IMG/VR virus record: IMGVR_UViG_3300025128_000221
Coordinates: 1-29,329 of that record
Direction: 5' to 3' (one strand)
DNA: 29,329 nt
Source: a virus
The notes below the pieces were generated by a model. That model saw nothing but the letters and a program-made list of their open reading frames with translations, was not told the origin of the DNA and made no database searches. This document shows positions 1-25,103 of this stretch, in pieces. Position 1 is the stretch's first letter. Each line of letters begins with the position of its first letter. Position numbers and translations under genes: made by a program.

Positions 1-1305
1 TCTGGAGTTAAAGTAAGGCTGCCCGACAAGCGTTTCGTTTGGGTAGGCACACAGCCGGGAACGTTTTACATGCAGCATAAGTTTAACGGCGGTAAGATGC
101 TTGTTGTAACTGAAGGCGAGATCGACGCGCTTAGCTATGCTGAAACACATAAGTGTCGTTGGCCAACTGTATCATTACCTAACGGAGCCCAAGGTGCTGC
201 GAGTGTCTTTAAGAGACACATGGAATGGTTGAGTAACTTTGACAAAGTTGTGTTGATGTTCGATCAGGATGATCCGGGCAGAAAAGCAGCGGAAGAATGT
301 GCGTTGTTGTTGCCTCCGGGTAAAGCACATATCGCAACACTATCGAAGAAAGATGCCAACGAAGTTCTTACGGCGGGGAACCCCGACGAGTTAACTAAAG
401 CTGTATACCAAGCCCGTGAATACATTCCCGGTGGTTTGGTTAAAGGTGAAGACTTGTGGGATCTTGTATCCACCGTACCCGAAGTTACGTGCGTCGAATA
501 TCCGTGGCTTAGTCTCCAAAGTAAGACGCGGGGATTACGTATGGGAGAACTAACGACTATCACAGCCGGGACTGGTATCGGTAAGTCACAAGTATGCCGG
601 GAACTTGCGTACCAGTTTTCACAACAAGGCTGGAAGGTTGGTTATTTTGCGCTAGAGGAAAGTGTTAGAAAGACAGCGCTATCCTTTATGTCCCTGTACT
701 TAGGTACACCGCTGTTTAATCTGGAAGAGAACTATAGTGAGTTCTCCAAGGATACGATTAAGGCTGCGTTTGACTCGGCTGTTGGTAACGGTAACTTAAT
801 TCTGTTCGACCACTTTGGTAGCCTCCAATCGGACAGACTTGTTACTAAGATTCGTTACGCGATCAAGGCATTGGATTGTAAAATCATCTTCCTAGATCAC
901 TTGTCAATTGTTGTTAGTGAGTTTGCTGACTCACAGGAAAGAACAGCGATTGATATGACAATGACGAAGCTCCGCTCGTTAGTTGAGGAAACAGGATGTT
1001 CGATGGTTCTTGTATCACATCTTAGGCGCTCGGATGGACGCGCACACGAGGAAGGTGGTCAGGTATCACTAGCACAATTGCGCGGTTCACATAGTATTGC
1101 ACAGCTTTCCGATATGGTTGTAGGACTTGAACGTTCACAGCAGGAAGAAGGCGATATCTCTAACTTGACACACGTACGGATTCTTAAGAATCGGTATAGC
1201 GGTGAAACAGGGCCGAGCGGTATTCTTCGTTATGATCCTCCAACAGGGAGATTACATAATCACGAAGATGAACCCGACCGTAACGACGATTTCTCGGAGA
1301 TGTAA
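1..1305 (+). CDS. Primase-helicase, T7 gp4-like (5' end cut by window)
   Basis: The frame is open from base 1, so the ATG at 70 is an internal Met and the true start lies upstream. About 434 residues are visible, against 566 in T7 gp4; the N-terminal zinc-binding domain and part of the primase core are missing. Visible in order: a Toprim glutamate motif (TEGEID, about 109-126), the Toprim metal motif FDQDDPGRKAA (about 259-291), a RecA-like helicase Walker A (AGTGIGKS, about 565-588), Walker B (IIFLDHLSIVV, about 883-915), the LVSHLRR motif and the LRGSHSIAQLSD loop. The tail is acidic with a late Phe (DDFSEM), like the T7 gp4 tail that contacts the DNA polymerase. By family, it unwinds the fork and lays primers. 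The polymerase gene starts 2 bases after the stop, so the two are probably co-translated. Confidence 0.95.
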   Translation, partial: SGVKVRLPDKRFVWVGTQPGTFYMQHKFNGGKMLVVTEGEIDALSYAETHKCRWPTVSLPNGAQGAASVFKRHMEWLSNFDKVVLMFDQDDPGRKAAEECALLLPPGKAHIATLSKKDANEVLTAGNPDELTKAVYQAREYIPGGLVKGEDLWDLVSTVPEVTCVEYPWLSLQSKTRGLRMGELTTITAGTGIGKSQVCRELAYQFSQQGWKVGYFALEESVRKTALSFMSLYLGTPLFNLEENYSEFSKDTIKAAFDSAVGNGNLILFDHFGSLQSDRLVTKIRYAIKALDCKIIFLDHLSIVVSEFADSQERTAIDMTMTKLRSLVEETGCSMVLVSHLRRSDGRAHEEGGQVSLAQLRGSHSIAQLSDMVVGLERSQQEEGDISNLTHVRILKNRYSGETGPSGILRYDPPTGRLHNHEDEPDRNDDFSEM

Positions 1306-1307
1306 TC

Positions 1308-3110
1308 ATGGCACACTTAACATTTGACATTGAGGCTGACGGACTACTTGATGAAGCTACTAAAGTCCATTGCATATCTATTGCATATGACGATCAGGAA
1401 CCTGAGTGCTATACGGATATAACGAAAGCGCTTAAGGTACTAGACTGGGGTACGGCACTTATTGGTCATAACATTATTAACTATGACTTACCGCTGCTAA
1501 ATAAGTTATGCGGCTGGACCCCTAAAAGTACGCAAAAAATTTACGACACTTTTCCCCTAGCGAAAATAGTATGGCCGGACATTATCGAGAAAGATAAGAA
1601 GCTGGACGTACCTAAAAAGTACTGGGGCAGGTACAGCTTGCGTTCATTTGGTTACCGACTAGGTATGAACAAAGGTGATGTTGAATCCTTTGACAAGTAC
1701 GACGAAGCTATGGCTGAGTACTGTAACCAAGATGTACGCATAACGCACACGTTGTTTCAGCAGATTTGGGGACACCTAGATCGTGGACCTGAGTGGTGGC
1801 ACAAAGCGTTTAAGCTTGAGCTTGAGTTTGCTGAAGCCGCACAGGACATGGAACATGCAGGTATTGAGTTTGACATGGAGGCAGGGCTTGAACTGTACGG
1901 CAGAATACAAGATGACCGATCAGAGATACTTGAGCAGGTTAATGATCTTGTTAAGCCTAAAGTTGAAGAGCTAAAGACTCCAGAGTATTGGACGGACCCA
2001 CTTACAGGATGTATGTACAAGACTAAGTCGGAAGCTCCTCCGTCTAGTCGTAAAGATCTAGAGCGTGGCCCTAACAAAACTAGAGTCACACCCTTTAATC
2101 CGATGTCTCGTCCACAGGTAGCCGACTACTTAATTAGTAAGGGATGGAAACCGACTAACACAACGCCCACAGGCAAACCTAAAGTAGACGAGGGTACTTT
2201 GATGGCAATCGAAGATATCCCCGAAGCACATCTTCTTGCTAAGCTCTACCGCATCCAGAAGATTGCGGCGATGCTTGCAGAAGGTAAGGAAGCATGGCTT
2301 AAGTTGGCTGTTGGTAATCGTATTCACCCGCACCTTAATACTATTGGCGCGGTGTCTGGCCGGACATCGTGTGTACGCCCTAACCTACAGCAAGTACCTA
2401 GTGCGCGTTTAACTTACGGTAAAGAATGCCGACAGTTATTTACGGCAGCCCGTGGTTACTCGCTTGTTGGTTGTGATGCTAAGTCACTAGAGGTTAGATG
2501 CTTTGCACACTACATGGCTAAGTACGACAGCGGTGAGTTTGCACGGGAAGTTATCAGCGGTGATGTACACCAAGCGAATGCTGACATGATGCATTGCGAT
2601 AGACAGACAGCAAAGAACACATTCTTTGCTTTGATCTACGGTGCATCACCTAAGAAGATCGCCAAGATGCTGGACATTACTACGTTCGATGCTCAAGAGT
2701 TATTGGATAACCTGTTCCGTAGGCGACCTGCTATGGGATATGTAGTTGATGGTATTAAATCAATGGCTTCTACCCGTGGGTATCTACGTGGACTTGACGG
2801 GCGCAAGCTTTTCCCACGCTCGGAACACAGTAGTGTTAATCTACTTGTCCAAGCAGCGGGAGCGTGTGTCTCTAAGCAAGCGACGATTAACTTACGCAAG
2901 GCAATCATGGCCGACAAGATGAACTGTCTTGGTGTCAAGATTGTGGGATTCATACACGACGAAGTTTTGATCGAGTGTGTATCGTCCTTGGCTCAGCCTA
3001 TGCTGGATAAAGCGATTAAGGCTTTCCGAGAAACAACTGAGCAATTTAACTTACGCTGCCCTATGGATGGGGAAGGATCAATCGGGGATAACTGGTATGA
3101 AGTACACTAA
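1308..3110 (+). CDS. DNA polymerase, family A (T7 gp5-like) with 3'-5' exonuclease
   Basis: A 600-residue replicative polymerase; T7 gp5 has 704. The exonuclease domain is intact: Exo I FDIEADG (6-12), Exo II around GHNIINYD (53-60) and Exo III YCNQDV (138-143). Polymerase motif A is LVGCDAKSLEVRC (386-398). Motif B has R432, K436, F440, Y444 and G445. Motif C is FIHDEV (548-553). In the R-x3-K-x3-[F/Y] spacing, F440 corresponds to E. coli Pol I F762 and T7 Y526. The segment where T7 carries its thioredoxin-binding insertion is short, with roughly 30 residues between DPLTG (230-234) and NPMSR (264-268). The ATG at 1308 follows a GGAGA in the end of the helicase gene. The 3' end overlaps the exonuclease gene by 14 bases. 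Confidence 0.96.
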   Translation: MAHLTFDIEADGLLDEATKVHCISIAYDDQEPECYTDITKALKVLDWGTALIGHNIINYDLPLLNKLCGWTPKSTQKIYDTFPLAKIVWPDIIEKDKKLDVPKKYWGRYSLRSFGYRLGMNKGDVESFDKYDEAMAEYCNQDVRITHTLFQQIWGHLDRGPEWWHKAFKLELEFAEAAQDMEHAGIEFDMEAGLELYGRIQDDRSEILEQVNDLVKPKVEELKTPEYWTDPLTGCMYKTKSEAPPSSRKDLERGPNKTRVTPFNPMSRPQVADYLISKGWKPTNTTPTGKPKVDEGTLMAIEDIPEAHLLAKLYRIQKIAAMLAEGKEAWLKLAVGNRIHPHLNTIGAVSGRTSCVRPNLQQVPSARLTYGKECRQLFTAARGYSLVGCDAKSLEVRCFAHYMAKYDSGEFAREVISGDVHQANADMMHCDRQTAKNTFFALIYGASPKKIAKMLDITTFDAQELLDNLFRRRPAMGYVVDGIKSMASTRGYLRGLDGRKLFPRSEHSSVNLLVQAAGACVSKQATINLRKAIMADKMNCLGVKIVGFIHDEVLIECVSSLAQPMLDKAIKAFRETTEQFNLRCPMDGEGSIGDNWYEVH

Positions 3111-3849
3111 GAATAATAAACTACAACCCAACATGTTAGTACTTATCGATGCTGACATTTTATACAACAGGGCGGCGTTTAGCTGCGAGACAGCTTTCTC
3201 ATTTGAGGGGGATGATGTACACGTATCAGACCCCGCTAATGTGGCGGATCTATTTCATCGGTTAACGATGGGGATACTGCACAAGCTAGACTCATCGCGT
3301 TACTTTATGTGCTGGAGTAGCCACGAAAACTTTCGTACATCTATCACCGACACGTATAAAGCCAACCGAGTTAGCGCACGTAGGCCCGCCCTTGACCCAA
3401 GCTTTAAGGAGCATATAAAGAGACGTTACCCAAGTGTGCAGATTAACCGACTGGAAGCAGACGATGTTATGGGCCTTATGTCCGGTGCTTTTGTTGTTAT
3501 TGCATCGGATGATAAGGACATGCTGACCATACCCGGATACAGCTATAAACCTAGACGACCTGATGATGGTTTACTGTACGTATCTGAAGAAGATGCCAAA
3601 TATAACTGGTACAAACAGATACTAATGGGTGACCGTGTTGACGGCTACAATGGTATTCCCGGAGTCGGGGAGAAAAAGTCTGATAAAATTATGGCTGACA
3701 ACGGCGCTACATGGAAAACTGTAGTTGACGCGTACGAGTGGGCTGACCTAACTGAAGAAGATGCTATCCAAACAGCACAGCTTGCGCGTATCTTACATCC
3801 CGGAGAGTGGGACTACAACACAAACGAACCCAAACTATGGCATCCTTAA
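3097..3849 (+). CDS. 5'-3' exonuclease, T7 gp6-like
   Basis: Read from the ATG at 3097, which overlaps the polymerase stop and has GGGGAT upstream, the protein has 250 residues; a second possible start is the ATG at 3133. The open frame reaches further back, but only inside the polymerase gene. Features of the FEN/5' nuclease family are visible: LIDADIL near the N-terminus, TYKANR, RLEADDVMGLMS, the SDDKDM acidic cluster and a GDRVDGYNGIPGVGEKK helix-hairpin-helix-like segment. The ending YNTNEPKLWHP closely resembles the end of T7 gp6. By family, it degrades duplex DNA from 5' ends, removes primers and helps break down host DNA. Its position after the polymerase fits the T7 replication module. 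Confidence 0.88.
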   Translation: MKYTKNNKLQPNMLVLIDADILYNRAAFSCETAFSFEGDDVHVSDPANVADLFHRLTMGILHKLDSSRYFMCWSSHENFRTSITDTYKANRVSARRPALDPSFKEHIKRRYPSVQINRLEADDVMGLMSGAFVVIASDDKDMLTIPGYSYKPRRPDDGLLYVSEEDAKYNWYKQILMGDRVDGYNGIPGVGEKKSDKIMADNGATWKTVVDAYEWADLTEEDAIQTAQLARILHPGEWDYNTNEPKLWHP

Positions 3850-4169
3850 TGAACAGAGAACAATTCCTAAAATTACACGAAACTTTATGCGATGAGGCTT
3901 ATGAAATTCTCGATGAAAAAATCACGAACTACTCTGGAACCGGAGATGTATTTACGAACTTTAGCCGAGTGGAAACCCTCCAAATATGCTCGACCACTAC
4001 GGGAATCCTCGCAAGAATGGCGGATAAATTTGGCCGACTTATCACGCACACCAATACGAAAGGTGGTTTGGTTGGCGAAGAAAGTTTTCACGATAGTGTG
4101 CTTGATCTCATTAACTATCTTGTATTTCTTTACGGCAGCAATACTGATGGGAGCGTAGACGATGCCTAG
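3849..4169 (+). CDS. Nmad1/DUF1599-like small protein
   Basis: The product has 106 residues from the ATG at 3849, which overlaps the exonuclease stop as TAATG; an upstream in-frame ATG at 3837 is possible. The pattern of a polar helix, then NYSGTGDVFTNF, a GILARMADKFGRL helix and EESFHDSVLDLINYLVFLY resembles small phage proteins of the nucleotide-modification-associated (DUF1599/Nmad1) type. These are predicted all-helical and are thought to act on nucleotides or modified bases. The family call rests on motif memory only; no catalytic residue can be assigned. It sits between the exonuclease and the zinc-knuckle gene, overlapping the latter by 8 bases, so it is in the same transcript. Confidence 0.55.
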   Translation: MNREQFLKLHETLCDEAYEILDEKITNYSGTGDVFTNFSRVETLQICSTTTGILARMADKFGRLITHTNTKGGLVGEESFHDSVLDLINYLVFLYGSNTDGSVDDA

Positions 4170-4404
4170 AACAACAACAGGACAGCGGAGAGCAGAGGAA
4201 AGACGCGCAGCGCATAAGGCCGGGGAGATACATCCCGACTCTGAGAAATGGTGCCAAATGTGCGACACCGTAAAACCTTTTACAGATTTTTATATCCGTT
4301 ATGATTATAATGGGTTACTATCACAGTACTGTAAAGTCTGTCATATGAAAGACTGCAAGGTTAGGAAACAGATTAAACGGAGGATGAATGCACAAAGTAC
4401 CTGA
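4162..4404 (+). CDS. Small zinc-knuckle protein, unknown role
   Basis: This basic 80-residue protein has two cysteine pairs, C31-x2-C34 and C57-x2-C60, plus C65, in the arrangement WCQMCDTVKPFTDFY ... YCKVCHMKDC. This is a compact treble-clef or zinc-ribbon layout of the kind found at the N-terminus of some phage HNH/endonuclease VII-like proteins, but no nuclease residues follow here. The rest is rich in Arg and Lys, so nucleic-acid binding is likely. It overlaps the gene before it by 8 bases and terL by 17 bases, showing tight coupling. The exact function is not recognisable. Confidence 0.75.
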   Translation: MPRTTTGQRRAEERRAAHKAGEIHPDSEKWCQMCDTVKPFTDFYIRYDYNGLLSQYCKVCHMKDCKVRKQIKRRMNAQST

Positions 4405-6061
4405 AGAGCTTAAAGACTTCCGTAACTTTCTGTTTGTTACTTGGAAGCACCTAGGACTACCGGACCCAACACCAATTCAATATGACATTGCTGAGTATCT
4501 TCAGAACGGACCCCGTAGGCGGATGGTACAAGCTTTTCGTGGGGTTGGAAAGTCTTGGATTACTTCTGCTTTTGTGCTATGGAATCTACTTAACAACCCA
4601 GATAAGAAAATCTTAGTTGTATCGGCCAGTAAAACACGCGCCGATGATTTCTCTACATTCTGCCACAGGCTTGTGGTAGAGATGCCGTGCCTAAAACATT
4701 TAGCGCCGACTGACGATCAACGAACAAGTAAGATTTCATGGGATGTTGGCCCAGCCCGTGCATCGCATTCCCCCTCATGTAAGTCAGTAGGTATTACAGG
4801 GCAGCTTACGGGCTCCCGTGCTGACCTTATTATTGCCGATGACGTAGAAGTCCCCGGCAACAGTTCTACCGTTACAGCGCGTCTCAAGCTGTCTGAAGCG
4901 GTACGTGAATTTGAAGCTATTATTAAACCCGAAGTCGGAGAGGTTGTTTTCCTTGGAACCCCACAATCACAAGAGTCCATCTACACAGAGCTTAACGCTC
5001 GCCAATATAATGTCGCGATTTATCCGGCGCGAATTCCCGAAGATCCCGGAATCTACGAGGGGGCACTTGCTCCTTATATTCTCAGCCTCCCTAGAGATGC
5101 TGGATCAGCAACCGACCCAGAAAGATTCTCCGACGAAGAACTCTTTGATAGAGAGGCTGCGTACGGGCGAACTGGATTCCAACTACAGTTCCAATTAGAT
5201 GTTCGTCTTTCAGACCTTGACCGTTATCCTTTACGTCTGTCTGATCTGGTTGTCATGGATATTGATACGGAGGTAGGGCCAGAAAAAGTTGTATGGGGCA
5301 CATCAATTGAGTTTGAGGGGCTACCAAACCTAGGGTTTTCGCGTGACAAGTACTATCGACCTGCGAAACTTGTAGGGGAAATGGTCCCGTATGACGGGTC
5401 ATGCATGTCGGTTGACCCGAGTGGCCGTGGTAAAGATGAAACAGCGTGGAGTGTTGTTAAATACCTGAACGGTTATTTGTACTTAGTTGACTGGGGAGGA
5501 TTTAGCGACGGGTTTACTGAAGAGGTTATGCGAAGCCTCGCTACCAAAGCCAAACAGCACCAAGTTAACGTAATAGTTACTGAGGCAAACTACGGCGGTG
5601 GGATGTTTAGCGAACTCCTTAAGCCCCACTTACGGGAAATCTACCCCGTAGCTATTGAAGAAATTACCGCACGTACTATGAAAGAACGTCGGATAGCTGA
5701 TACACTAGAACCTGTGCTTAACCAACATAAGCTATGCATCGACGCGTCTGCTATCCGCCGAGACTACGAAAGTACCCTCAAGCTATCGCCAGAAGTTGCT
5801 GCACAATATAGCCTTATGCATCAGATGTCACATGTAGCCAGAGAGCGCGGATGCTTAGTCCACGACGATAGATTAGATGCTGTAACTATGGCCGTCGAGT
5901 ACTGGTCAGAAGCTATGTCACGCAGCGCCGACGATGCAATTGCCGAACGCCGTGAAGAACTACTTGACGAAGAACTAGACGCTATTATAAACGGGACACC
6001 GTCCCCTAGAGAGAGGAGGGGAGTGACGAAAGGTAATCGTCCCCGTTGGTTTGATGTTTAG
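4388..6061 (+). CDS. terL: Terminase large subunit (DNA packaging ATPase/nuclease), T7 gp19-like
   Basis: The protein has 557 residues, close to T7 gp19 (586). The ATPase domain shows the T7-type Walker A QAFRGVGKSW (48-57), an adenine-side segment VVSASKTRADDF and Walker B with its glutamate, LIIADDVE (147-154). The preceding TGQLTGSRAD is also gp19-like. The nuclease domain shows its first acidic residue in SVDPSGRGKDETAW (about 5408-5449), the YGGGMF segment and the final HDDRLDAVTMAVEYW, which carries the last metal-binding aspartates. By family, it cuts the concatemer and pumps DNA into the prohead through the portal. It starts inside the zinc-knuckle gene. Its last 56 bases overlap the probable small subunit on the other strand. 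Confidence 0.95.
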   Translation: MHKVPEELKDFRNFLFVTWKHLGLPDPTPIQYDIAEYLQNGPRRRMVQAFRGVGKSWITSAFVLWNLLNNPDKKILVVSASKTRADDFSTFCHRLVVEMPCLKHLAPTDDQRTSKISWDVGPARASHSPSCKSVGITGQLTGSRADLIIADDVEVPGNSSTVTARLKLSEAVREFEAIIKPEVGEVVFLGTPQSQESIYTELNARQYNVAIYPARIPEDPGIYEGALAPYILSLPRDAGSATDPERFSDEELFDREAAYGRTGFQLQFQLDVRLSDLDRYPLRLSDLVVMDIDTEVGPEKVVWGTSIEFEGLPNLGFSRDKYYRPAKLVGEMVPYDGSCMSVDPSGRGKDETAWSVVKYLNGYLYLVDWGGFSDGFTEEVMRSLATKAKQHQVNVIVTEANYGGGMFSELLKPHLREIYPVAIEEITARTMKERRIADTLEPVLNQHKLCIDASAIRRDYESTLKLSPEVAAQYSLMHQMSHVARERGCLVHDDRLDAVTMAVEYWSEAMSRSADDAIAERREELLDEELDAIINGTPSPRERRGVTKGNRPRWFDV

Positions 6062-6260
6062 TAGAGAAAGGTAGGATGTCTTTAATGTCACCAAGCGGTG
6101 ACTCCTCTACATCCGACACAGTTATACTATGATCCTTCAACATTTGACGAGCAATATTTAGATCCTGAGATGTATAATCCCCTGACTCAATTTTACTTAA
6201 CAATGTGTTTACGGTTAGTGACCATAGACGCTCTAACATGGCTTGCTTGGGATCTTGCAT
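6006..6260 (-). CDS. terS: Probable terminase small subunit (T7 gp18-like), antisense to the 3' end of terL
   Basis: The 84-residue product has a small-terminase pattern as known from T7-like marine phages: a helix (LERLWSLTVNTLLSKI), then SGDYTSQDLNIARQMLKDHSITV, then an ESPLGDIKDILPF segment. By family, it recognises phage DNA and stimulates TerL. The start is the ATG at 6260, with GGAG 8 bases upstream on this strand. The gene runs against all its neighbours. It ends inside terL, with a 56-base overlap and the two C-termini encoded on opposite strands. Its start codon overlaps that of the next + gene within one CATG. Similarity was judged by eye, so the call is strong but unproven. Confidence 0.78.
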   Translation of the reverse strand: MQDPKQAMLERLWSLTVNTLLSKIESGDYTSQDLNIARQMLKDHSITVSDVEESPLGDIKDILPFSTKHQTNGDDYLSSLPSSL

Positions 6261-6519
6261 GAGATTAACTCCGAGTGATAATGATGATGTGAATGGACCT
6301 GTAACGTTTGCTCAGATCCTACTAACTAATAAGATAATGGAACAACTAATTGAAGAGCTAGGTGATAGATTGTTTTCTGTCCGCAAGCTTATCAATGCAA
6401 CTGTGAAAGAAACCCCGACAACCGACAAGAATTACGGAGTGTATGCCGCTTTACTCTGTATACTTGACCAACCTATTGAGACTAACCTATGGAAAATGGG
6501 AGAAGACGAAGATGAGTAA
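6259..6519 (+). CDS. Hypothetical protein, 86 residues, acidic tail
   Basis: No family is recognised. From the ATG at 6259 the protein reads as a probably helical domain (TFAQILLTNKIMEQLIEELGDRLFSVRKLI), a short polar linker, a second hydrophobic helix (GVYAALLCILDQPIE) and an acidic end, MGEDEDE. The frame extends to an ATG at 6205, and an internal ATG exists at 6238. The ATG at 6259 is chosen because a GGGAT lies about 8 bases upstream. It shares the CATG with the terS start on the other strand. The 3' end overlaps the phosphoesterase gene by 8 bases, so the two are translationally coupled. Confidence 0.65.
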   Translation: MRLTPSDNDDVNGPVTFAQILLTNKIMEQLIEELGDRLFSVRKLINATVKETPTTDKNYGVYAALLCILDQPIETNLWKMGEDEDE

Positions 6520-7492
6520 CAAACTAGAGAAAGAAGTCCGAAGACTAACGCGCCAATTACAGGAACGCGACGATATTGAAGCGTTGGTTATGCGTAGGGT
6601 GGATGACGCACTTAAAACATTTAAGTGGGAAGCCCCAGCCATACGTAAGAAAGACACGCGCAAGCGTGGTGAAGAAGTATGTGTTATCCATATTAGTGAT
6701 ACACAGATTGGTAAAAAGACCAGTACGTATAACACTAAGATTGCTGCAAAACGTATTGAACAGTTTGCTGACAAAGTAGACAGACTAACCGACAACCGAC
6801 GCACTAGCTCAAAAGTAGAAGAAGCTGTTGTATTGATTGGTGGCGACATTGTTGAAGGGGAAACAATCTTCCCACACCAACCGTGGGTAGTTGACAATGA
6901 CCTATGGGGTCAGGCTATCCAACATGCACCAACGATGCTTGCCGACTTTATCGTTAAGTTAAGCAGTTCATTCCGCAAGCTGCGTGTGCTATCTGTGCCG
7001 GGAAACCACGGCAGATCACAACCAAAGAATGCCGGAGCTTCTCCGCGCACAAACTTTGACATGATTGCTACGCAGATTACACGGCTGCTCGTAGCCAAGT
7101 CAATTAAAGATAACCGCGTAGAGTGGGACATTGACCACGATACGTTCTACCGCATCGCAGACGTACTAGGGCACAAGCTTTTGCTTATCCACGGAGATCA
7201 GATCTCTGGTGGTGGCGGCTTGGGTGGTTACCCGTTAACCGGACTTGCACGAAAGATTGCAGGTTGGAGCGGCAGCATCCCCGACAACTGGTCTAACATT
7301 TTCCTAGGGCACTTCCATCGTCCCATGTCTGGAGTCATCCAAGACAAGATGTTCTTTGGTAATGGGACTACGGAAAGTAGCAACGATTGGGCATTAGAAG
7401 TTATCGGAGATGCTGGTCGCCCCTGTCAACGTGTAGTGTTTTTTAATAAAGAGCATGGGCCTGTGTCAGATAGTCTAGTCTGGCTCGACTAA
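6512..7492 (+). CDS. Calcineurin-like metallophosphoesterase
   Basis: Read from the ATG at 6512, preceded by GGGAG, the protein has 326 residues. An N-terminal charged helix (about 1-38) is likely coiled coil. The metal-binding blocks of the superfamily follow in order: ISDTQIG (61-67, with Gln where the family usually has His), GGDIVEGE (110-117), PGNHGR (163-168), LIHGDQ (225-230) and LGHFHRP (265-271). By family, this is a binuclear metal phosphodiesterase or phosphatase, and relatives act on DNA, RNA or cyclic nucleotides. The substrate cannot be told from the sequence. Its place after the packaging genes suggests DNA processing, but this is inference. Its stop overlaps the HNH gene stop on the opposite strand. 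Confidence 0.85.
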   Translation: MSNKLEKEVRRLTRQLQERDDIEALVMRRVDDALKTFKWEAPAIRKKDTRKRGEEVCVIHISDTQIGKKTSTYNTKIAAKRIEQFADKVDRLTDNRRTSSKVEEAVVLIGGDIVEGETIFPHQPWVVDNDLWGQAIQHAPTMLADFIVKLSSSFRKLRVLSVPGNHGRSQPKNAGASPRTNFDMIATQITRLLVAKSIKDNRVEWDIDHDTFYRIADVLGHKLLLIHGDQISGGGGLGGYPLTGLARKIAGWSGSIPDNWSNIFLGHFHRPMSGVIQDKMFFGNGTTESSNDWALEVIGDAGRPCQRVVFFNKEHGPVSDSLVWLD

Positions 7493-7748: not shown

Positions 7749-8048
7749 ATGAAGTTTAGGGAAGCTGTTGTACTTTTACTGCACCAAGAGCCGTTAATCT
7801 GCGAAGTCGATGTACAGCTTACATCTAAGTTAGACGAAGATGTGTATGGGGAGTGCCATTTAGACCTTAACAAGAAACGCATCAACATCATGGTAGCAAG
7901 GTCACTCCCGCTAGTAGCACAACTTGACGCACTAATCCACGAATGGGCTCACGCAATGCTCGCAGGGATGCCCGAAGAGTTTCATAAACACGGACCAATG
8001 TGGGGCGTATGCTACGCTCGTTGTTACTGCGCTGTATACCCACGCTAA
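7749..8048 (+). CDS. Small zinc metalloprotease-like protein (HEWAH motif, SprT-like)
   Basis: The product has 99 residues. The zinc-binding motif HExxH is present as IHEWAHAML (H64-E65-x2-H68), followed by HGPMWGVCYARCY, where H81 is a plausible third ligand. This spacing resembles the short SprT-like or WLM-type 'mini-metalloprotease' proteins seen in phages and bacteria. No signal peptide or membrane segment is visible, so it would act in the cytoplasm. Targets are unknown; processing of structural proteins or host factors is only a guess. Its TAA overlaps the TAG of the converging 88-residue gene in a CTAA tetranucleotide. It is the last + strand gene in the window. Confidence 0.75.
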   Translation: MKFREAVVLLLHQEPLICEVDVQLTSKLDEDVYGECHLDLNKKRINIMVARSLPLVAQLDALIHEWAHAMLAGMPEEFHKHGPMWGVCYARCYCAVYPR

Positions 8049-8311
8049 CTCCGCCTACTTTTAGCGCCCGAACACTTCCAACGCTTACGTGATAAGTTGT
8101 TGGGGGTGTTTGGGTCATTTCGTTTAGCTACCGACAAACGTTTCTTAATCCCAAGTGATCTCGCACAGTACGAGTCCCCTTTAGATGTTCCCGGTCTAAC
8201 TCTCGGACCACCGCCCTTAGCTTTACCAGCTTGTCCGTAACTTACTTTCTTACCGGAAGCTGTGCGTTTGACACGCGCTTTGCCCTTAGCAGGGCCACTA
8301 CGTCTAGGCAT
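8045..8311 (-). CDS. Small basic protein of unknown function
   Basis: The 88-residue product is strongly basic. The N-terminal half is low in complexity (Arg, Lys, Gly, Ala). The C-terminal half has a more defined segment, DSYCARSLGIKK ... NTPNNLSRKRWKCSG, with two cysteines. I remember similar tails in small proteins of marine phages but know no function; a nucleic-acid-binding or virion-associated role is possible. The start ATG overlaps the end of the holin-like gene by 8 bases, tying it to the late leftward operon, and it is the last gene before the arms collide. The overlap with its neighbour and the conserved-looking tail support that it is real. Confidence 0.65.
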   Translation of the reverse strand: MPRRSGPAKGKARVKRTASGKKVSYGQAGKAKGGGPRVRPGTSKGDSYCARSLGIKKRLSVAKRNDPNTPNNLSRKRWKCSGAKSRRS

Positions 8312-8711
8312 CTTTCTTCTCCTTATCTTTTGTTAATGTGTCGGCAGATCCATCAACAATCGTTTTAAGAATTGACGATAGCGATGTGACCACGAGAGTA
8401 ATTAATCCAGCCACGACTGCAATTGAGTCGGCGGGGATAAACAAACAACTTCCCACAAAAGCGAGAACAAGGATTAGCAAATATAATCCTGCAAACTGAG
8501 ACAAATGTATAGAGGCAAGTTCACTAGCACTTTGGCTTGCTTTAATCTCAGCAAGTTTAGCTTTAGCTTCTACTTCGCGCAGTAGAACCTCGGCCCTAGT
8601 ATCTATAACTTGTGCGCGTTGGCGCTGATCTGATTCTGACATGTTTAATCCAAGAAGTTTACGAAGCAGATTTTGCAATCGCTTTCGCAAGGAGGTTTTA
8701 AAGAGACGCAT
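8304..8711 (-). CDS. Holin-like membrane protein (two transmembrane segments)
   Basis: The chosen start is the ATG at 8711, with GGTGG just upstream, giving 135 residues. The frame stays open to 8798, but that would overlap the spanin-like gene with no better ribosome site. Layout: a basic amphipathic N-terminus (1-23), a charged helix rich in Ala, Glu and Lys (about 35-65), a first membrane segment (about 73-92), a second (about 96-114) separated by a short IPAD turn, and a charged tail KDKEKKDA. Two membrane spans with a charged C-terminus fit a class II holin, which opens the inner membrane at lysis. The neighbouring u-spanin-like gene supports this. An alternative is a structural or superinfection membrane protein. 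Confidence 0.6.
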   Translation of the reverse strand: MRLFKTSLRKRLQNLLRKLLGLNMSESDQRQRAQVIDTRAEVLLREVEAKAKLAEIKASQSASELASIHLSQFAGLYLLILVLAFVGSCLFIPADSIAVVAGLITLVVTSLSSILKTIVDGSADTLTKDKEKKDA

Positions 8712-8739
8712 GATGCCACCAGTAGTAATAGTAATATTT

Positions 8740-9165
8740 TTAGTGCCATCCGTTAGACCTTTGTAGTTTAACAAGAAGACCAATAAGAAGAACAGCAATC
8801 ACGCCGCCAAAAACAGAGGCGTGTCGCCAGTCAGCTTTGAAGGTAGCTCCTGTAGCAAGGCTCTCAGAGAACTCTTCATCTACGGGCTCTTCTTCAATAA
8901 TAACTGAAGTACCTAAAACTTCATTTCTATCCACCACAGGGTGGGCATCAATGCTGGGTATGTGCCATGTAAGAGCGGCAGCAGTTGATGAGCTTTCGCC
9001 TTCATACTCAAACATATCGTTATGTCCTGAGTAACCGCCTACTGTAGCTGATGTACCTTCTGCATGACCAAGCGTTAACTCGTCAGGCATTAATACATCA
9101 GCTACAGATGTGGACGCGCAGGAGGCTAAAAGAAGCCCAATGACTGCTAAAGCTTTTTTGCTCAT
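8740..9165 (-). CDS. u-spanin-like lipoprotein with C-terminal membrane anchor
   Basis: The 141-residue protein starts with a lipoprotein signal peptide: MSKKALAVIG, then a hydrophobic run ending in the lipobox LLASC with Cys16. It ends with a single membrane segment (about 117-134, VFGGVIAVLLIGLLVKL) and a short basic tail. The middle is polar and rich in Ser, Thr and Gly. A lipid anchor for the outer membrane plus an inner-membrane helix in one chain is the architecture of unimolecular spanins such as phage T1 gp11, which fuse the two membranes at the end of lysis. The start overlaps the stop of the small basic gene as ATGA, and the holin-like gene follows. The function is inferred from architecture only. 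Confidence 0.6.
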   Translation of the reverse strand: MSKKALAVIGLLLASCASTSVADVLMPDELTLGHAEGTSATVGGYSGHNDMFEYEGESSSTAAALTWHIPSIDAHPVVDRNEVLGTSVIIEEEPVDEEFSESLATGATFKADWRHASVFGGVIAVLLIGLLVKLQRSNGWH

Positions 9166-9323
9166 GACTTCTTCGTGCGTTTTTTAGTCGTTTTTTTAGA
9201 CTGTGTAAACGCTTTTTTGGTAGGCGCTCCCTTAGTTCCGGGTTTACGCATTGTTTCGCCGCTTCCCGCTTTAATACGCTTACGCTTTGCGTGGATGTTA
9301 CTGTAAAGGCCGGGGCGCTTCAC
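9162..9323 (-). CDS. Small basic protein, 53 residues, GTG start
   Basis: This short gene starts at GTG 9323, which overlaps the stop of the preceding lipoprotein gene as GTGA, and ends with TGA overlapping the next start as ATGA. GGAG lies 8 bases before the GTG. The product begins MKRPGLYSNIHAKRKRI (GTG read as Met), continues KAGSGETMRKPGTKGAP and ends in a Lys/Thr-rich tail. I recall the RPGLY-N-IHAKR-RIKAGSGE-MRKPG pattern as a recurrent small protein in marine phages without known function. The in-frame ATG at 9251 would give only the last 29 residues and lose that pattern. Double overlap coupling on both sides supports a real gene. Confidence 0.8.
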   Translation of the reverse strand: MKRPGLYSNIHAKRKRIKAGSGETMRKPGTKGAPTKKAFTQSKKTTKKRTKKS

Positions 9324-9634
9324 GCTTGCGTCTCCTCTTCCTCGTCTTCTTCTTCAAGAACTTCCCACTCTTCGGCTTCTTTCTTTGCCTTGTGCTTCTT
9401 AGCAGCAAACAAAGCAGCAGCGCCGCCGAGCATAGTAGCAACAGCACCGCCCATAGCGGGGTTACCAGTCATCATTGTTGTTAACGTCCCCGCTTGCTCA
9501 GCAAGCATAGGTGCGCTATCCATAATAGTTGCTCCCATAGCTTCAGCTTGCTCTTCGCCTCCGGGCATTAGTTTGCCAACGGTTGCACAGGCAGGAAGAA
9601 GGACGGGCATCATAAGAACATATAGTCGATTCAT
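9320..9634 (-). CDS. Putative lipoprotein with second hydrophobic segment, unknown role
   Basis: From the ATG at 9634, one base after the stop of the gp16-like gene, the product has 104 residues. The frame extends 11 codons further upstream into that gene, but only this Met gives a clean signal sequence. It begins MNRLYVLMMPVLLPAC, a lipoprotein-type signal with Cys16. A Gly/Ala-rich hydrophobic stretch at about 58-78 could span a membrane. Lys-rich residues and a very acidic tail (EEEDEEEETQA) follow. It lies between the ejection-protein genes and the spanin/holin pair, so a lysis or envelope role is possible. I do not recognise the family. Confidence 0.65.
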   Translation of the reverse strand: MNRLYVLMMPVLLPACATVGKLMPGGEEQAEAMGATIMDSAPMLAEQAGTLTTMMTGNPAMGGAVATMLGGAAALFAAKKHKAKKEAEEWEVLEEEDEEEETQA

Positions 9635-9635
9635 T

Positions 9636-12600
9636 TTATTGTGGGGGTTTGGGTAAGAGAGGCTCAATTAAAACATTACTAATAATACTGGAGTACCATG
9701 CGTTAGCCATCGGGACCATACGCATTAAGCTACGGTATTGTTTCTGATCTAAGTGCCCTTGCTTAAAGGCATCGAATATTGTGCCGGGAACTTTTCCTGC
9801 ATCAGCAAGCGTAGACATTGATGGGAAGTTAACGAGCGTGGGCTCGTGCATGTTTGTAAAGACAGGCTCAACAGGCAGCCCAATCCGACCAAGCCCCCAA
9901 AGAACTGAGTCAGTTAGGTCAGGCATCATTCCCCACAGCGCCGTCTTACGTGTTGCAGCTTTAAGTAACCCTTCAGTTGACAGTGCTTCTTCTAATTTTT
10001 CAGGCTCATCCCAGTAGTACAGGTAAGCCAGCGCAATCGACACGCCAATAGCCCCCACCATCTGTGCCATTAATGTTTGGGCTGCTAACGAATCCCTTAG
10101 CTGGACGTTGCGAGCAAAGTGGTTAGTTTGTGATGTAATAGCAAAGGCTTTAAACTGAGTAAAGAAGTCACCCATTTCACTACTAACTAGCCATTGGGGA
10201 CGGTCCAAAACGTCTGAGCGCTGCATAACTTGTTTAACCCACTTAGTAGACATTGACCTAAAGCGAGCTTGCATTTCAGGAGATAGTGCGTTGACGTTAA
10301 TGCGGTCAAGCGTAATACCGTTCATTGTTTCAGACACAATTACTCCGGGATTACTCAATGCATCCATTAGCTCATCAAAGCCTTCCCGTGTTTGACCTAG
10401 CGTAGCAATGCGTACGTTCTTGCGGCCAACAAAGTCAGCCACATCCCCAGTTCGCACCATTGCAGACATACGATTCATAAACGAACTAAACGCCCACATG
10501 TCTCCGTAGATGTTTAGGTTCGAGTACCCTGACTTGTATCCCACTCTGGGCTGCATACGTGAGGATACTTCATATGCACGGCCCAGTTTACCGTCACCAA
10601 ACATGGGCTGACCTTCGCTCATTAGCTCGAACTTGTTGTATGCCAAAGCCATTTCAGCCTCAGCATCACCCATTCCTAAGAAGAAGGACAAGAAATCACG
10701 AAGCGTTTCGTCCTCAATTTTTCCACCAGCCATTGCGGCTGTGCGGATCTTTGTAAAGACGGGCATTGCATCTAACACAGTTGAAAACCCACCGGATACT
10801 GCTGCTGCTGTAGTCTCAGGAAGCTGCGTCTTAACGAAACCCGGAACCCTTAAGTTACCTGTAGCCGAACGTAGAACTGATAAAGCTGAGCCAAGAGTAG
10901 ATCGGTGAAACTGCGGCTTTCCTAGAATATCATTCTCTAGGATTTTTAGTTCTTGTTTAAGTCCTTGAATATTAGTAACAGCGTTACGTGCTTGTGCAGT
11001 CTCCACTACGCCAGTCATTAGCTCAGAGATCGTATCGTATCGCTTACCGCCGGGGCCTCTGTACTTATCAAGAATGTACTTAGTTTGAATTTCAATAAAT
11101 ATATCGCTTGCGTATCTATCAAGAACAGCTTGTGGGTTTTCCTCGAAAAGATCCGTAATGTAAATTTCTTTAGTACTACCATCAGTAAGCTTAAACTTTT
11201 TAGTAATTGTAGGATCAAGCTTAACACGGTACATAGTCCTCTTAGACTTCTTAATTGTAATGCCAATGTCTTTAAGCAACGCCGCACGTTCTTCCGAAGT
11301 AAAGGCAAATGTACTATCTTCCCCCATACCCTCACGCAACCACTTCTCAACGCCTTCTAGTGTTTCTTCTGCATTGCCTTTAGCCATGCTGGCAACTTGC
11401 TGCGCTGTGTTCTGGTGCGATGCTCCCACGGTGTAATACGTGTATAGCTTTTGTGCCATAATACGTGATGATTCTTCAGACCATTCTTCACCTTTCATAA
11501 TAGCATCAGTAAGGAAGTCTTCCATTTGTTCCTTGCCAGAGCGTCCACTAGTAATAACAACTTTATTAACAAAGCTGTCCAGCTTGCCCGTCTGCATAAT
11601 CTGGGTAAAGTAAGACGGATCGGGATCAATGTTCTCGAACCCACGGATCTCGGCATCCTGCGCCATCTCCATTAGTTCTTTGAACTTCTTCTGTATAGGA
11701 GCGGCGGCTTTCTTAACGAGGGCTTGCTCAGCGGGATCAGTCGGAAGAACTCTGCCGTCACTTTTAATGTAACGGGCAACCATGTGGTCAAATTCAGTAG
11801 CAAGGTTACCGGAAATAGCTTGCCTTGCTCTTTTACCTAAGCCTGACTCGTTAATTGTATTTCGGTGTTTAACAAACTCATCAACTGTTGGAAGGTATAT
11901 GCGCCTAAAATCGTTAAGCTGCGTGGTAACAAATGTCCTACGTGCTGCCTTAGCACCATCAGACAAGATGTTGTAGTTCTTAAATAATCCCTGAGCTTGT
12001 CCGGCAGGAAAGTATTGACCCGCTTTATTGTGCAAAGCCGCTTGGCTGCCGAGTACATCAGAAGCCATAGCTCGTACAATACCAAGGTGGTGCGAAAGCA
12101 TTTTAGATCTGTAGCCACCAAGAGATACAAAGTTCCAAAACTTATGTAGTCTCGGAGCATCGTCAAGTATGTTGTCCCTACTAACCTCAACAGTCTCAGA
12201 CGCCCCTGTAATCCCCTCTCCCAGTTCTTCAGCGCGTGCTTGACGCGCAGCCTCGGCTTCTCGTTTAAGCTCTCCTGCGGCCCTGTAGCGCTCTAGCTCA
12301 GATGCTCGCTCAAAGCGTTGCCGAGGACTAGTATTTACATTAATGTTTGCATCACCAAACTCAGTTAACGTGTACCAGTCAGCAGGTAAGTCTCCGTATT
12401 GCGACAATCTAATAAGAGGATCTTCGGGATACTCAATAGAATGTAGGAACTCAAAGCCCTCTTCGCCCCGCAGCAGTCCCATCTTAGCGCGAAGAGCCAT
12501 TGTAAACTCAGGATCGGCTAACTGAGCAACACGCTGTTCCCTAACACGCCTGTTAATCTCAGCCATTGCCTCGGCTTTATTCATATCGTCAAGCATAAAG

Positions 12601-15600
12601 CGCTGAGTTTGGGCTCCCTCGGCGCTATCCTTAATACGTACCGCCCACGTCCTACGCTTGCCCCCAACCTTTAGTCGGCTTACTTCAACGTCAAAGCCCA
12701 TAATGCTTTGGCTAAACTTAATGCCCAGTCGCTTGTTTCCTTGCCACGTATGCTCAATTGTTTTGAGTGACGTTGTAGGGAACAACGAATCACTAGCCGC
12801 AGCAAACTTAACTAAGTCTTCTGTCCGTGCTACGTGTACCTCTCCCTGCTTAGTCCGTACAACACGTTCCCGCATTGCATCGTCGGAACGGAACTCAGGC
12901 TGCATTGGAGAATCGTCGAGGACTCCGCCTCCAAACAAAAGATCGTCAACATCAGTATCCGTAAGATACTCAGCAGTTTCCACTTCGCCTGTTTTCTTTG
13001 TTACGGTGCGGGGTGTTAAATCATCATAATCAATAATAAGTAGGTCATCTCGTTGCGCACGTACAAGACCTAACCTACCGTCAGGACCAACAACAAGGTC
13101 ACCAGCCTTCTTCTTTAACCTACGCCCTAATCGTATTGACTTATCATCAAGCTCTTGTGCTACGTTAATTGCGGCCCTTGCACGTAGACGTTGCTCTGCG
13201 GTTATGTTAACAAGATCACGCAGACGTAGATTACGGACAGTTGCTGGACTTTGACGCGACAAAAACTCTAAGTCGTTTATGCCAATAAATCCTGCGTGTC
13301 CTTGCGTAATGTCACTTATTAGGCGTAAAGTTTGCGCCTGTACGCCAGCAGGATCAGGAGCTTCTTTTGCTAGCTCGTCAATTTCAGAACGTAATCCAGA
13401 TACGTTAGCGTTATGCTTACGAGTTAAGTCAAGTAATTGATTTTCGGCTTTACGTATTTGTTTAGCTGTAGCGCCTGACTCTTTAAGGTTATCAATTCGC
13501 CGCTGTAGCTGTCTAGCTTTACTGGAGTACTGTGCTGTTTCTTTATCAATATTTTTTTGTAGCTCTTCAGACTTCTCAAGATTCTGGCGATACCGTAGGG
13601 TGGCATTGTAGTCAGCAAGTCTGGCTCCAAGTCGGCTTTTCTCAACAGAGTTTGCAATAGCTTCGTCAAACTTCTTTTGGGTTACCCTAATTTCTTCCGT
13701 AATATCATCAATAGACTTTGTTGCTGTGCTGGGTATTACATTAAGTACTTCATCAGTACTAAGAGTACCGACATTACCAGCACCCTCGAACATAGCGTCA
13801 AGTGTTTCTTGGTTGTCAAAGTCGAGCTTACGCATAAACGGTAGCTCATACTCATCACCCTGACGAATCCATTCCATAGGACCAGCCATGTCAGGCGTAC
13901 CACGGTAGGTTGGGTCAGCCATAAGAATAGCTTCGTAAGCTGCTTCGACTTCATCGTACAAACTTTGAAGCATCTCGCGTCCTTCAGGATGACGTAGAAG
14001 CCAGTCAACGCGCTCAGCATTAAGCATTTCAACGGCTTCTGTGTCGCCACGCCCCACAGCGCTTAACAGTTCATCTATACGCGAGTCTTCTACGCTAGTG
14101 GTTTTTAGCCTCTCTAGACGTTCTCTAAGTGTGGCTTCTTCTCCACGTAGTTTATCGGCTTCTTGTCTAAACGATCCGGATGTACGTCTACCCGCTTCCG
14201 GCCCTGTTGTAGATTTTTTACTTGGGGCAGCAAGAGCAGCGTCTTCTAGCTCTTTAATCTTTTCAGCGTTAGCTTTAACAGTTTGCTCAATTTCTGCTTC
14301 AAGTGCGGCTATTTCTTTTTGAAGACGCTCAGAAGGTTTTCCGGTTCTGGCCGAATCAAGGTCAATGCTGCTGCGGATCTCGTCCTCCATCCTACGCCAC
14401 AGATCTTCTTGGCGAGATAGTAATTGATCCATTCGTGGTAGTTGACGTAAAGAATCAATACGTGAACGTAGTAGCTCTATTTCCCGTGTAATTTTTGTAG
14501 CTTCTTCAGGCGAAGCCGCATCAAGCTCGTCAGCTAAGTCTCTAAGCTGCTTATTTAAGTTACCTCGTCGGCGGGGATCAGGTGGTCCAAATAGTTCAAG
14601 TTCAGGACCAATTAACTCATCTAGCATTTGATCGTGACGCGACAGGATGTTCATTACTTCCTGCGTGTATCTTGGATCTGTTTGTGCGGGATCAGTAGCA
14701 GCTTTAAGCGCCAGACGTAGCTCTTGGAAGCTGGCTGTCATAGCTTCCTGTCGGGCCATTTCAATGCCCTCTTTTACGGCTACGCGCTCAAGAGCATTAC
14801 GCATAAACCCACGATGCTCGATCCCCCCAAACGTCCCGCCTAGCAGTCCTGCCAACGCAATGTTAAAGGCGTAGTCTTCGTCTTCAACGTACGGACTACC
14901 AGCGTCAGCCATTGCTGTAAACGTAGCTCCCCAGAGGCCCTCTGCGGCTGCGTGTATGCCCATCCCCCGTACAAATGATCCTTTAGTCGTTGCTAGTTTA
15001 GCCGCCCGTGAGGCCAATCCTATCCGTGCTACAAGCGATGCTCCACGGTCTACTAACACACTACCAACAAGCGGGATTGGGTCCGTCATAGGCAGAAGCC
15101 ATTGGTCAGCAAACCGCCACAACTCGTCGCTGCCGCCGTCGCGCTCTGCGTGAATCATACCTTCCATAGCAGACATAAACTCTTCGTCTGACTGAATGCG
15201 CGACACAAAACGCTCAGCGTCTCTTAATGATGGTTGTTCAAATAACTCATCGTGAAAACGTGCAGGAATGCCTCTACTTAATCTTCCCCAGTTTTTACCG
15301 TCCCACGCAAAGTCAGGATCCGGTGTTGTTTCCGTAAAGAACCCGCCAACCATTCCGGTTGTGTACGACCACTTATGCTGCATGTACCGCCCAAAGGTAC
15401 TGCCGGAGTCTGTGGGCTTAGTCTCAAAATTACCCGTAGCTAAGTTACGGGTAGTCTCCATGTTGTCACCAAAAATTTGTACAAACGGGTTTACATCCGT
15501 ACGCCACGTAGGCTGCTGAGTTAGTATTTCTGCTTTACGGGCGTACCGATCATACATATTAGCCCGAAGCGCATCTAAATTCTCATCAGATAGCGTGGGC

Positions 15601-15665
15601 TTTGCCCGACGAATCGCAGGGCTAGTGGTAACTAATTCTGACCACTCAGAGGGATCTTGTGCCAA
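9636..15665 (-). CDS. Giant internal virion/ejection protein, T7 gp16-like
   Basis: A 2009-residue protein; T7 gp16 has 1318. Its place after gp13-, gp14- and gp15-like genes identifies it as the inner core/ejection protein, which by family leaves the head with the DNA and forms a channel across the cell envelope. A Gly/Ala-rich hydrophobic region lies near residue 270. Long charged helices typical of coiled coil occur at about 340-560 and 690-790. A segment near 1600-1660 reads SALSVLRSATGNLRVPGF, and a hydrophobic helix near 1875 reads GAIGVSIALAYLYYW. No lytic transglycosylase motif was found by eye at the N-terminus, unlike T7 gp16. The start is TTG at 15665, 2 bases after the upstream stop and with GGGGG upstream; the next ATG would remove 37 residues. 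Confidence 0.85.
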   Translation of the reverse strand: MAQDPSEWSELVTTSPAIRRAKPTLSDENLDALRANMYDRYARKAEILTQQPTWRTDVNPFVQIFGDNMETTRNLATGNFETKPTDSGSTFGRYMQHKWSYTTGMVGGFFTETTPDPDFAWDGKNWGRLSRGIPARFHDELFEQPSLRDAERFVSRIQSDEEFMSAMEGMIHAERDGGSDELWRFADQWLLPMTDPIPLVGSVLVDRGASLVARIGLASRAAKLATTKGSFVRGMGIHAAAEGLWGATFTAMADAGSPYVEDEDYAFNIALAGLLGGTFGGIEHRGFMRNALERVAVKEGIEMARQEAMTASFQELRLALKAATDPAQTDPRYTQEVMNILSRHDQMLDELIGPELELFGPPDPRRRGNLNKQLRDLADELDAASPEEATKITREIELLRSRIDSLRQLPRMDQLLSRQEDLWRRMEDEIRSSIDLDSARTGKPSERLQKEIAALEAEIEQTVKANAEKIKELEDAALAAPSKKSTTGPEAGRRTSGSFRQEADKLRGEEATLRERLERLKTTSVEDSRIDELLSAVGRGDTEAVEMLNAERVDWLLRHPEGREMLQSLYDEVEAAYEAILMADPTYRGTPDMAGPMEWIRQGDEYELPFMRKLDFDNQETLDAMFEGAGNVGTLSTDEVLNVIPSTATKSIDDITEEIRVTQKKFDEAIANSVEKSRLGARLADYNATLRYRQNLEKSEELQKNIDKETAQYSSKARQLQRRIDNLKESGATAKQIRKAENQLLDLTRKHNANVSGLRSEIDELAKEAPDPAGVQAQTLRLISDITQGHAGFIGINDLEFLSRQSPATVRNLRLRDLVNITAEQRLRARAAINVAQELDDKSIRLGRRLKKKAGDLVVGPDGRLGLVRAQRDDLLIIDYDDLTPRTVTKKTGEVETAEYLTDTDVDDLLFGGGVLDDSPMQPEFRSDDAMRERVVRTKQGEVHVARTEDLVKFAAASDSLFPTTSLKTIEHTWQGNKRLGIKFSQSIMGFDVEVSRLKVGGKRRTWAVRIKDSAEGAQTQRFMLDDMNKAEAMAEINRRVREQRVAQLADPEFTMALRAKMGLLRGEEGFEFLHSIEYPEDPLIRLSQYGDLPADWYTLTEFGDANINVNTSPRQRFERASELERYRAAGELKREAEAARQARAEELGEGITGASETVEVSRDNILDDAPRLHKFWNFVSLGGYRSKMLSHHLGIVRAMASDVLGSQAALHNKAGQYFPAGQAQGLFKNYNILSDGAKAARRTFVTTQLNDFRRIYLPTVDEFVKHRNTINESGLGKRARQAISGNLATEFDHMVARYIKSDGRVLPTDPAEQALVKKAAAPIQKKFKELMEMAQDAEIRGFENIDPDPSYFTQIMQTGKLDSFVNKVVITSGRSGKEQMEDFLTDAIMKGEEWSEESSRIMAQKLYTYYTVGASHQNTAQQVASMAKGNAEETLEGVEKWLREGMGEDSTFAFTSEERAALLKDIGITIKKSKRTMYRVKLDPTITKKFKLTDGSTKEIYITDLFEENPQAVLDRYASDIFIEIQTKYILDKYRGPGGKRYDTISELMTGVVETAQARNAVTNIQGLKQELKILENDILGKPQFHRSTLGSALSVLRSATGNLRVPGFVKTQLPETTAAAVSGGFSTVLDAMPVFTKIRTAAMAGGKIEDETLRDFLSFFLGMGDAEAEMALAYNKFELMSEGQPMFGDGKLGRAYEVSSRMQPRVGYKSGYSNLNIYGDMWAFSSFMNRMSAMVRTGDVADFVGRKNVRIATLGQTREGFDELMDALSNPGVIVSETMNGITLDRINVNALSPEMQARFRSMSTKWVKQVMQRSDVLDRPQWLVSSEMGDFFTQFKAFAITSQTNHFARNVQLRDSLAAQTLMAQMVGAIGVSIALAYLYYWDEPEKLEEALSTEGLLKAATRKTALWGMMPDLTDSVLWGLGRIGLPVEPVFTNMHEPTLVNFPSMSTLADAGKVPGTIFDAFKQGHLDQKQYRSLMRMVPMANAWYSSIISNVLIEPLLPKPPQ

Positions 15666-15667
15666 AA

Positions 15668-18523: not shown

Positions 18524-18538
18524 AATTAATAAAGTCCG

Positions 18539-19153
18539 TTAAGGAAACATACCATCAGGGTAAACCTTTGCACCGCTTTCGTATAAAAATTGATTGTTAA
18601 CGCCCAAAGATCCTGTTGGTGCTGTCCCCATGCCGGGAATATTTGTTACAGAACTAGTATCACCAAACACATCTGCGCCGTCTAGCGGGTTTTTTCCGGC
18701 AATCATTTGACTTTGTAAATAGCCTTGACCAGCAGCGAGCGCGTATCCCGCTAGACCGGAACTCCTGTTTTGCATCATTCGTCCTTGCCATTGGCTTACT
18801 CTTGCGGCATTCCGCATGCCACCAGCAAGAGCTTGCTGATCTCGCTTCGCAGAAATTGCTGATTGGTACTGACCTTCTCTTTGTGCAAACTCGTCCAATA
18901 GCTGATCCAACGATGCAGATTTAGCTGTGCCCCGTGCCGCACCTAACGCACGAACGCTACCCTGCGCCATAAGTGATTTACGGCGGATTTTATCGCGCTC
19001 AAGCTCTGCACCAATCATTTCTTCAGTTTGCCGCTGAGCTTCGCCAACACGCGAAATCCTAAGCGCTGCTGTTGCATTTTCACGATTAGCACGTTTGTCC
19101 GACTCCGCCATCGCGTGTTTGGCAACCGACATTACTATGGCTATATGGCACAT
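18539..19153 (-). CDS. Internal virion protein, T7 gp14-like
   Basis: A 204-residue protein; T7 gp14 has 196. The N-terminus MCHIAIVMSVAKHAM parallels the hydrophobic MCWAAAIPIAISGAQ start of T7 gp14. A polar helical stretch follows, and SASLDQLLDEFAQREGQYQ matches the SSMDRI...EGQFIREAN region of gp14 in pattern. The C-terminal third is Gly/Ser/Asn-rich. By family, gp14 is ejected first and forms the outer-membrane pore. The start ATG overlaps the upstream stop as TAATG, and AGGGGGA upstream gives one of the clearer ribosome sites in this arm. Confidence 0.83.
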   Translation of the reverse strand: MCHIAIVMSVAKHAMAESDKRANRENATAALRISRVGEAQRQTEEMIGAELERDKIRRKSLMAQGSVRALGAARGTAKSASLDQLLDEFAQREGQYQSAISAKRDQQALAGGMRNAARVSQWQGRMMQNRSSGLAGYALAAGQGYLQSQMIAGKNPLDGADVFGDTSSVTNIPGMGTAPTGSLGVNNQFLYESGAKVYPDGMFP

Positions 19154-22894: not shown

Positions 22895-22896
22895 TA

Positions 22897-23181: not shown

Positions 23182-23183
23182 TA

Positions 23184-23834: not shown

Positions 23835-23842
23835 AGTATTGT

Positions 23843-23870
23843 AGGGGGCCCCTGTTTCCAGAAGCCCCCT
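23843..23870 (-). terminator. GC-rich hairpin between capsid and tail tubular A genes (possible leaky terminator or mRNA-end structure)
   Basis: AGGGGGC at 23843-23849 pairs perfectly with GCCCCCT at 23864-23870, giving a 7-bp stem with a 14-base loop. It lies just after the capsid stop and 8 bases before the tail tubular A start. T7 places its partial terminator T-phi at the same point, after gene 10. No T-run follows on the - strand, so it may act as a weak terminator, an RNase-processing or 3'-end-stabilising element, or a modulator of translation of the next gene. Confidence 0.45.
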
Positions 23871-23876
23871 GTTTAA

Positions 23877-25031: not shown

Positions 25032-25036
25032 GATAT
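25032..25036 (-). other. Spacer between Shine-Dalgarno and capsid start
   Basis: The five-base spacer ATATC separates AGGAGG from the ATG at 25031, an optimal distance. It confirms the capsid start. Confidence 0.7.
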
Positions 25037-25042: not shown

Positions 25043-25054
25043 ATGGATTTGGGT

Positions 25055-25082: not shown

Positions 25083-25103
25083 ATTTATTGACCACAGGAG
25101 GTT

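Follow-up and report, generated by a model that had tools for sequence, protein, structure and literature searches.

The window, the whole 29,329-nt stretch of viral DNA analysed here, carries two genes that profile searches assign to the large and small subunits of a T7-type terminase. They lie on opposite strands and overlap tail to tail. The large subunit gene, terL, follows a run of replication genes on the plus strand, and the small subunit gene, terS, lies on the minus strand, beyond the end of a long late arm. An earlier reading of this DNA, made from the letters alone (the sequence-only reading), had drawn attention to the junction, and its coordinates, opposite strands and 56-nt overlap all agree with the ORF coordinates. 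The features of the locus, in order of position, are:

70..4404, plus strand: replication arm (primase-helicase, DNA polymerase, exonuclease, endonuclease VII-like)
4388..6061, plus strand: terL, large terminase, 557 aa, the last replication-arm gene before terS (PF22530, PHROG 38)
5993..6005, minus strand: weak terminator-like hairpin directly after the terS stop (consensus scan)
6006..6061, no strand assigned: tail-to-tail overlap of terL and terS, 56 nt (ORF coordinates)
6006..6260, minus strand: terS, T7 gp18-type small terminase by profile, 84 aa (PF11123, PHROG 891)
6259..6519, plus strand: 86-aa ORF of no assigned function, head to head with terS (shared CATG)
6269..6272, minus strand: GGAG upstream of terS, 8 nt before the ATG (anti-SD duplex energy -6.1)
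6512..7492, plus strand: metallophosphoesterase/exonuclease-like gene, its ATG overlapping the stop of the 86-aa ORF (PHROG 284)
8045..29202, minus strand: late arm (LysM protein, portal, scaffold, capsid, tail tubular A and B, internal virion protein, small genes)

Identity of the terminase genes

The terL product matches both PF22530 (E 3.4e-38) and PHROG 38 (E 6e-117). The 84-aa product of the minus-strand ORF scores 48.2 bits against PF11123 (DNA_Packaging_2), where the cut-off is 27.5 (E 1.1e-12), and also matches PHROG 891, 'terminase small subunit' (E 4e-8). In a 61-sequence alignment, it has the ARQ-LKD and C-terminal LPF motifs in common with other T7-like TerS proteins. The product is small and predicted to be mostly helical, as a T7-type small terminase should be; the structure model places helices at 4-26, 31-43 and 57-62, with a mean pLDDT of 73 and a low-confidence C-terminus. 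Neither a profile search of TerS against PDB sequences nor a Foldseek search with the model gave a meaningful match. Between two close relatives, L093 and L096, terS has accumulated 4, 3 and 28 substitutions at codon positions 1, 2 and 3 (dN 0.05, dS 0.92), and this third-position bias indicates that it behaves as a translated gene. Among the relatives, purifying selection on terS is strong.

The 29-kb window holds one PF11123 match, and so does G001, a relative of 40,386 bases that comprises loci L177, L207 and L208; the stretches of G001 outside L177 contain no terL or terS match. The last 100 bases of G001 repeat its first 100 (99/100 identical), and on the strength of this terminal repeat we took the genome to be complete at about 40.3 kb, a completeness that is apparent, such records being generally classed as linear and often being fragments. 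The profile matches, the selection and the single terS of G001 all uphold the proposal of the sequence-only reading that the ORF encodes TerS. Judged by its sequence, the 84-aa minus-strand ORF is a real T7-type small terminase, with DNA binding and activation of TerL as predicted activities.

Convergent terminase genes in one clade of T7-like phages

TerL-bearing loci were gathered from IMG/VR with several queries, and a TerS profile was built from them. Among the matches listed, terS lay on the terL strand in 149 entries and on the opposite strand in 16; the latter include the window, entered as L001, and several entries that show one contig a second time. After dereplication at 95% TerL identity, 70 of the 78 T7-type TerL loci with TerS among the matches listed were co-directional and 8 were opposite, figures that describe the sampled loci and depend on the query patterns, and so are not a population frequency. 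Within this sample, terS and terL are indeed normally co-directional in T7-like phages, as the sequence-only reading had stated. The eight opposite-strand loci are the window, L083, L093, L096, L097, L098, L099 and L008. In the TerL tree, the window, L083, L093 and L096-L099 form one clade (SH-aLRT 100); two quick trees were built, with SH-aLRT support only, and both group these seven convergent-overlap loci with full support. TerL identity between the window and the clade members is about 70-74%.

Convergent orientation was seen again in every clade member found, and the search for relatives with the same arrangement turned up the same type of junction in about ten contigs. The window is a 29-kb fragment, which leaves some room for the view that the ORF is no true gene, with the authentic terS at another place, or that its orientation is an assembly artefact. 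Yet the profile matches, the selection, the absence of another terS from G001 and the recurrence of the junction across contigs run against this view, which we consider extremely improbable. The convergent terminase arrangement is real and is inherited in one group of uncultured T7-like phages, most of which are represented by metagenomic fragments. A search of genome contigs returned only same-strand relatives, and the literature on T7-like phages, consulted mostly at the level of titles and abstracts, yielded no opposite-strand terS/terL case.

T7 genes 18-18.5-19 (TerS, spanin and TerL; Autographiviridae) likewise place a gp18-family gene (PF11123) and a gp19-family gene (PF22530) in one neighbourhood. 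In T7, however, terS and terL share a strand and a single late region, whereas here they are convergent and TerL is grouped with the replication genes. The window and its clade therefore lack the canonical T7 packaging cluster, a late-region pair of co-directional terS and terL. Among the closest catalogued TerL proteins (~54-58% identity) are those of Ayaqvirus S45C18, Roseobacter phage CRP-114, Pelagibacter phage HTVC011P and Pseudomonas phage LUZ100. In all four, unlike in the window, terS precedes terL on the same strand, directly in S45-C18, CRP-114 and HTVC011P and with one gene between in LUZ100; terS of S45-C18 is annotated as hypothetical in its record and was recognised by a match. 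The IMG/VR lineage L008/L012/L013/L122 resembles the window clade in having convergent terL and terS, but differs from it in its flanks and in the ~930 nt, including an HNH gene, that separate the two. We considered this lineage as a second independent origin; the tree places L008 elsewhere, but the hypothesis of one shared origin survives the AU test (p-AU 0.39). In L008, an HNH-like gene (8360-8602, minus strand; called by eye, with no profile) overlaps terS by 4 nt. Small HNH-type or HNH-like genes also lie near terS in the window (7489-7740, minus strand), L082 and L083.

The gene order of the clade is replication genes, terL (plus), terS (minus), 86-aa ORF (plus), metallophosphoesterase/exonuclease (plus) and late genes (minus), and it is the same in L083, L093, L096-L099, L177, L179 and L180. 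A SprT-like gene stands between the exonuclease and the late genes in several members. terS packs exactly, in antisense, into a plus-strand gap of ~200 nt between terL and the 86-aa ORF. Its start codon overlaps that of the 86-aa ORF as CATG in the window, L093 and L096, and the other members examined have 0-5 nt between the two (in L083/L092 the 86-aa ORF was taken to start at GTG). The 86-aa ORF is kept across the clade at 20-37% identity and under purifying selection, and is modelled as two helices with moderate confidence. The exonuclease-like gene (PHROG 284 'exonuclease', E 1.2e-43) has 64-70% identity within the clade. Two further observations were made on these neighbours. First, a SprT-like small protein (PF10263, below cut-off) is encoded at 7749-8048 on the plus strand of the window, amid minus-strand genes. 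Second, an exonuclease/metallophosphoesterase gene with 45% identity also lies 3' of terL on L181 (9935-10734), a more distantly related 11-kb contig in which no terS was found.

The late arm was recognised by its portal (PF12236) and internal virion protein (PHROG 342) and has the same order in G001. There, the portal, scaffold, capsid and tail genes lie on the strand opposite terL, while the terL strand also encodes a T7-type RNA polymerase; this polymerase is upstream of the replication arm in the relatives L098/G003, G001 and G002. In the same-strand relatives whose coordinates were compared, the capsid gene is on the terL strand. The clade genome consists of two convergent arms, terL standing at the end of the replication arm and terS being part of the late arm. 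Judging from gene order, at least two rearrangements would be needed to derive it from the usual arrangement.

The leader of the capsid gene in the late arm has features of its own. A hairpin with a 4-bp stem and a UGCG loop (UACG once), followed by (G)AYAAY, occurs at 25106-25117 (minus strand) in the window, at 9920 in L208 and in L213-L230. In the window and at 17 of the 18 other T7-like capsid loci scanned, it precedes the major capsid gene by ~75-110 nt, and no further copy was found in the sources scanned. The isolates RHEph01, CRP-114, HTVC119P and S45-C18 have it, BB8 has it with a UGAG loop, and T7 does not. The stem covaries, with 97% of cells paired and 21 two-sided changes against 5.9 in shuffles, although the structure was picked from the same sequences as were tested. 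No Rfam family matched the hairpin at gathering level in the sources searched. The capsid leader of the clade (window 25028-25135, minus strand; L208:9894-10012; L214) also contains CCTCCTRTGG, which is complementary to the capsid ribosome site CCATAGGAGG. The pairing of CCTCCTRTGG with CCATAGGAGG spans 10 bp in G001 and G002 and has one G-U pair in the window; it is formed in the minimum-energy fold of the window and not in that of G001. By its complementarity, this pairing possibly exerts translational control over capsid synthesis.

Overlap length and expression signals around terS

The window has a 56-nt overlap at the junction and L083/L092 one of 50 nt, but in L093, L096, L097, L098, L099, L177, L179 and L180 the two genes share just 4 nt. 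The conserved feature is the convergent orientation and not a long overlap, and the 56 nt of the window are most likely an incidental shift of the terS stop codon. The sequence-only reading had proposed that the terL and terS mRNAs form a duplex at their 3' ends that ties their levels together. Such a duplex could extend over the long overlaps of the window and L083/L092, but eight other clade loci would offer it only 4 nt, the plus-strand RNA fold across the overlap is not unusually stable (z -0.34), and a duplex would be likelier to trigger decay than to match levels. We therefore regard coupling through the overlap as very unlikely. If antisense RNA matters here, the relevant region would be the whole of terS, and mutually exclusive states would be more likely than matched levels.

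Signals for translation and transcription were also inspected. The GGAG site that had been described as good is present before terS in the window, but this part of the description does not extend to the clade: none of the six relatives checked has a ribosome site at terS (anti-SD duplex energy 0.4 to 3.1). The hairpin after the terS stop is missing from the minimum-energy fold and is unmatched at the corresponding place in most relatives. L098 has a GGGGGTTCGTTCCC-T5 hairpin just 3' of the terS stop on the minus strand, and L093, L097, L099 and L092 have no hairpin like it at the 3' end of terS. In the window and five relatives, a sigma-70 scan near terS gave promoter-like sites at chance level, and a terminator scan gave few sites, not consistently conserved; between 6061 and 6259, the window scan detected no plus-strand terminator-like site. 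A search of G001 for a repeated phage RNA polymerase promoter returned just one short local repeat, and a repeat search in the window, L098 and L093 gave nothing convincing. With promoter- and terminator-like sites at chance level or inconsistent, these scans do not place the transcription units, and regulation is something that we infer.

Separate transcripts and proposed timing of TerS and TerL

The opposite strands require that TerS and TerL come from different transcripts, a point on which the sequence-only reading was right. The account that we favour, and hold to be somewhat more probable than its negation, is that of a T7-type pair in a two-arm genome, with TerL early and TerS later by opposite transcription, licensing packaging. 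TerL would be made together with the replication proteins, from the plus strand, and TerS would be made later, by oppositely directed transcription. Packaging would then be licensed only once TerS appears, and the availability of TerS would act as a timer.

The arrangement could also be the passive outcome of rearrangement and compaction, an inversion of the late arm and a move of terL having left the genes tail to tail with no regulation. This agrees with the two-arm anatomy and with separate expression, and differs only on whether there is a regulatory effect. Overlaps of 4 nt at stop codons are ordinary among compact phage genomes; in the clade, overlap length ranges between 4 and 56 nt, relatives do not share the ribosome site of the window, and no promoters or terminators are consistently conserved. 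On the other hand, terS has kept its orientation and its close fit at either end through deep divergence (~70% TerL and 44-60% TerS identity), a persistence that one ancestral event without easy reversal could explain. We judge the chances of a purely passive origin to be evenly balanced.

Alternatively, the locus could work as a switch of the kind found in noncontiguous operons (defined and reviewed in PMC7154746), with the terL transcript running antisense through terS and terS transcription running antisense through the 86-aa ORF and exonuclease, so that replication and packaging states exclude each other. The anatomy fits the definition: as in menE-menC-MW1733-ytkD-MW1731 of S. aureus and tha/ith of phage 80alpha (PMC7154746, PMC11087260), a coding gene is nested in antisense within an opposite run, and every member examined has terS flanked by terL and the 86-aa ORF. 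Such a unit has been shown to switch gene expression in 80alpha (PMC11087260). Those units, however, were characterised by measuring their transcripts and reciprocal regulation; the candidate unit here involves terminase subunits and is defined by its anatomy, the promoter search having placed neither promoter. Were terL, the 86-aa ORF and the exonuclease carried on a single transcript, the whole of terS would be covered in antisense, and such a spanning transcript would tend to make the expression states for replication and packaging mutually exclusive. A promoter inside the antisense strand of terS could instead drive the 86-aa ORF and exonuclease, leaving no spanning transcript. We hold a switch of this kind to be possible but improbable, and say the same, tentatively, of any real regulatory effect of the antisense arrangement. 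That it times packaging in a lytic T7-like clade, with terS silenced under replication transcripts and freed by late transcription, is doubtful. In S. aureus phages, the terS-terL region yields RNA capable of activating a bacterial CBASS cyclase (PMC10686824), and by analogy activation of this type is a possible side effect of terS-terL RNA here.

Returning to the favoured account, the split of TerS and TerL onto opposing arms suggests that their co-transcription is not required. Terminase subunits act as a complex, and their genes are usually adjacent. Whether TerS timing is by itself enough to license packaging could be examined in this clade as a natural experiment. Should the antisense overlap prove regulatory, noncontiguous-operon control would extend to the packaging genes of a lytic phage.
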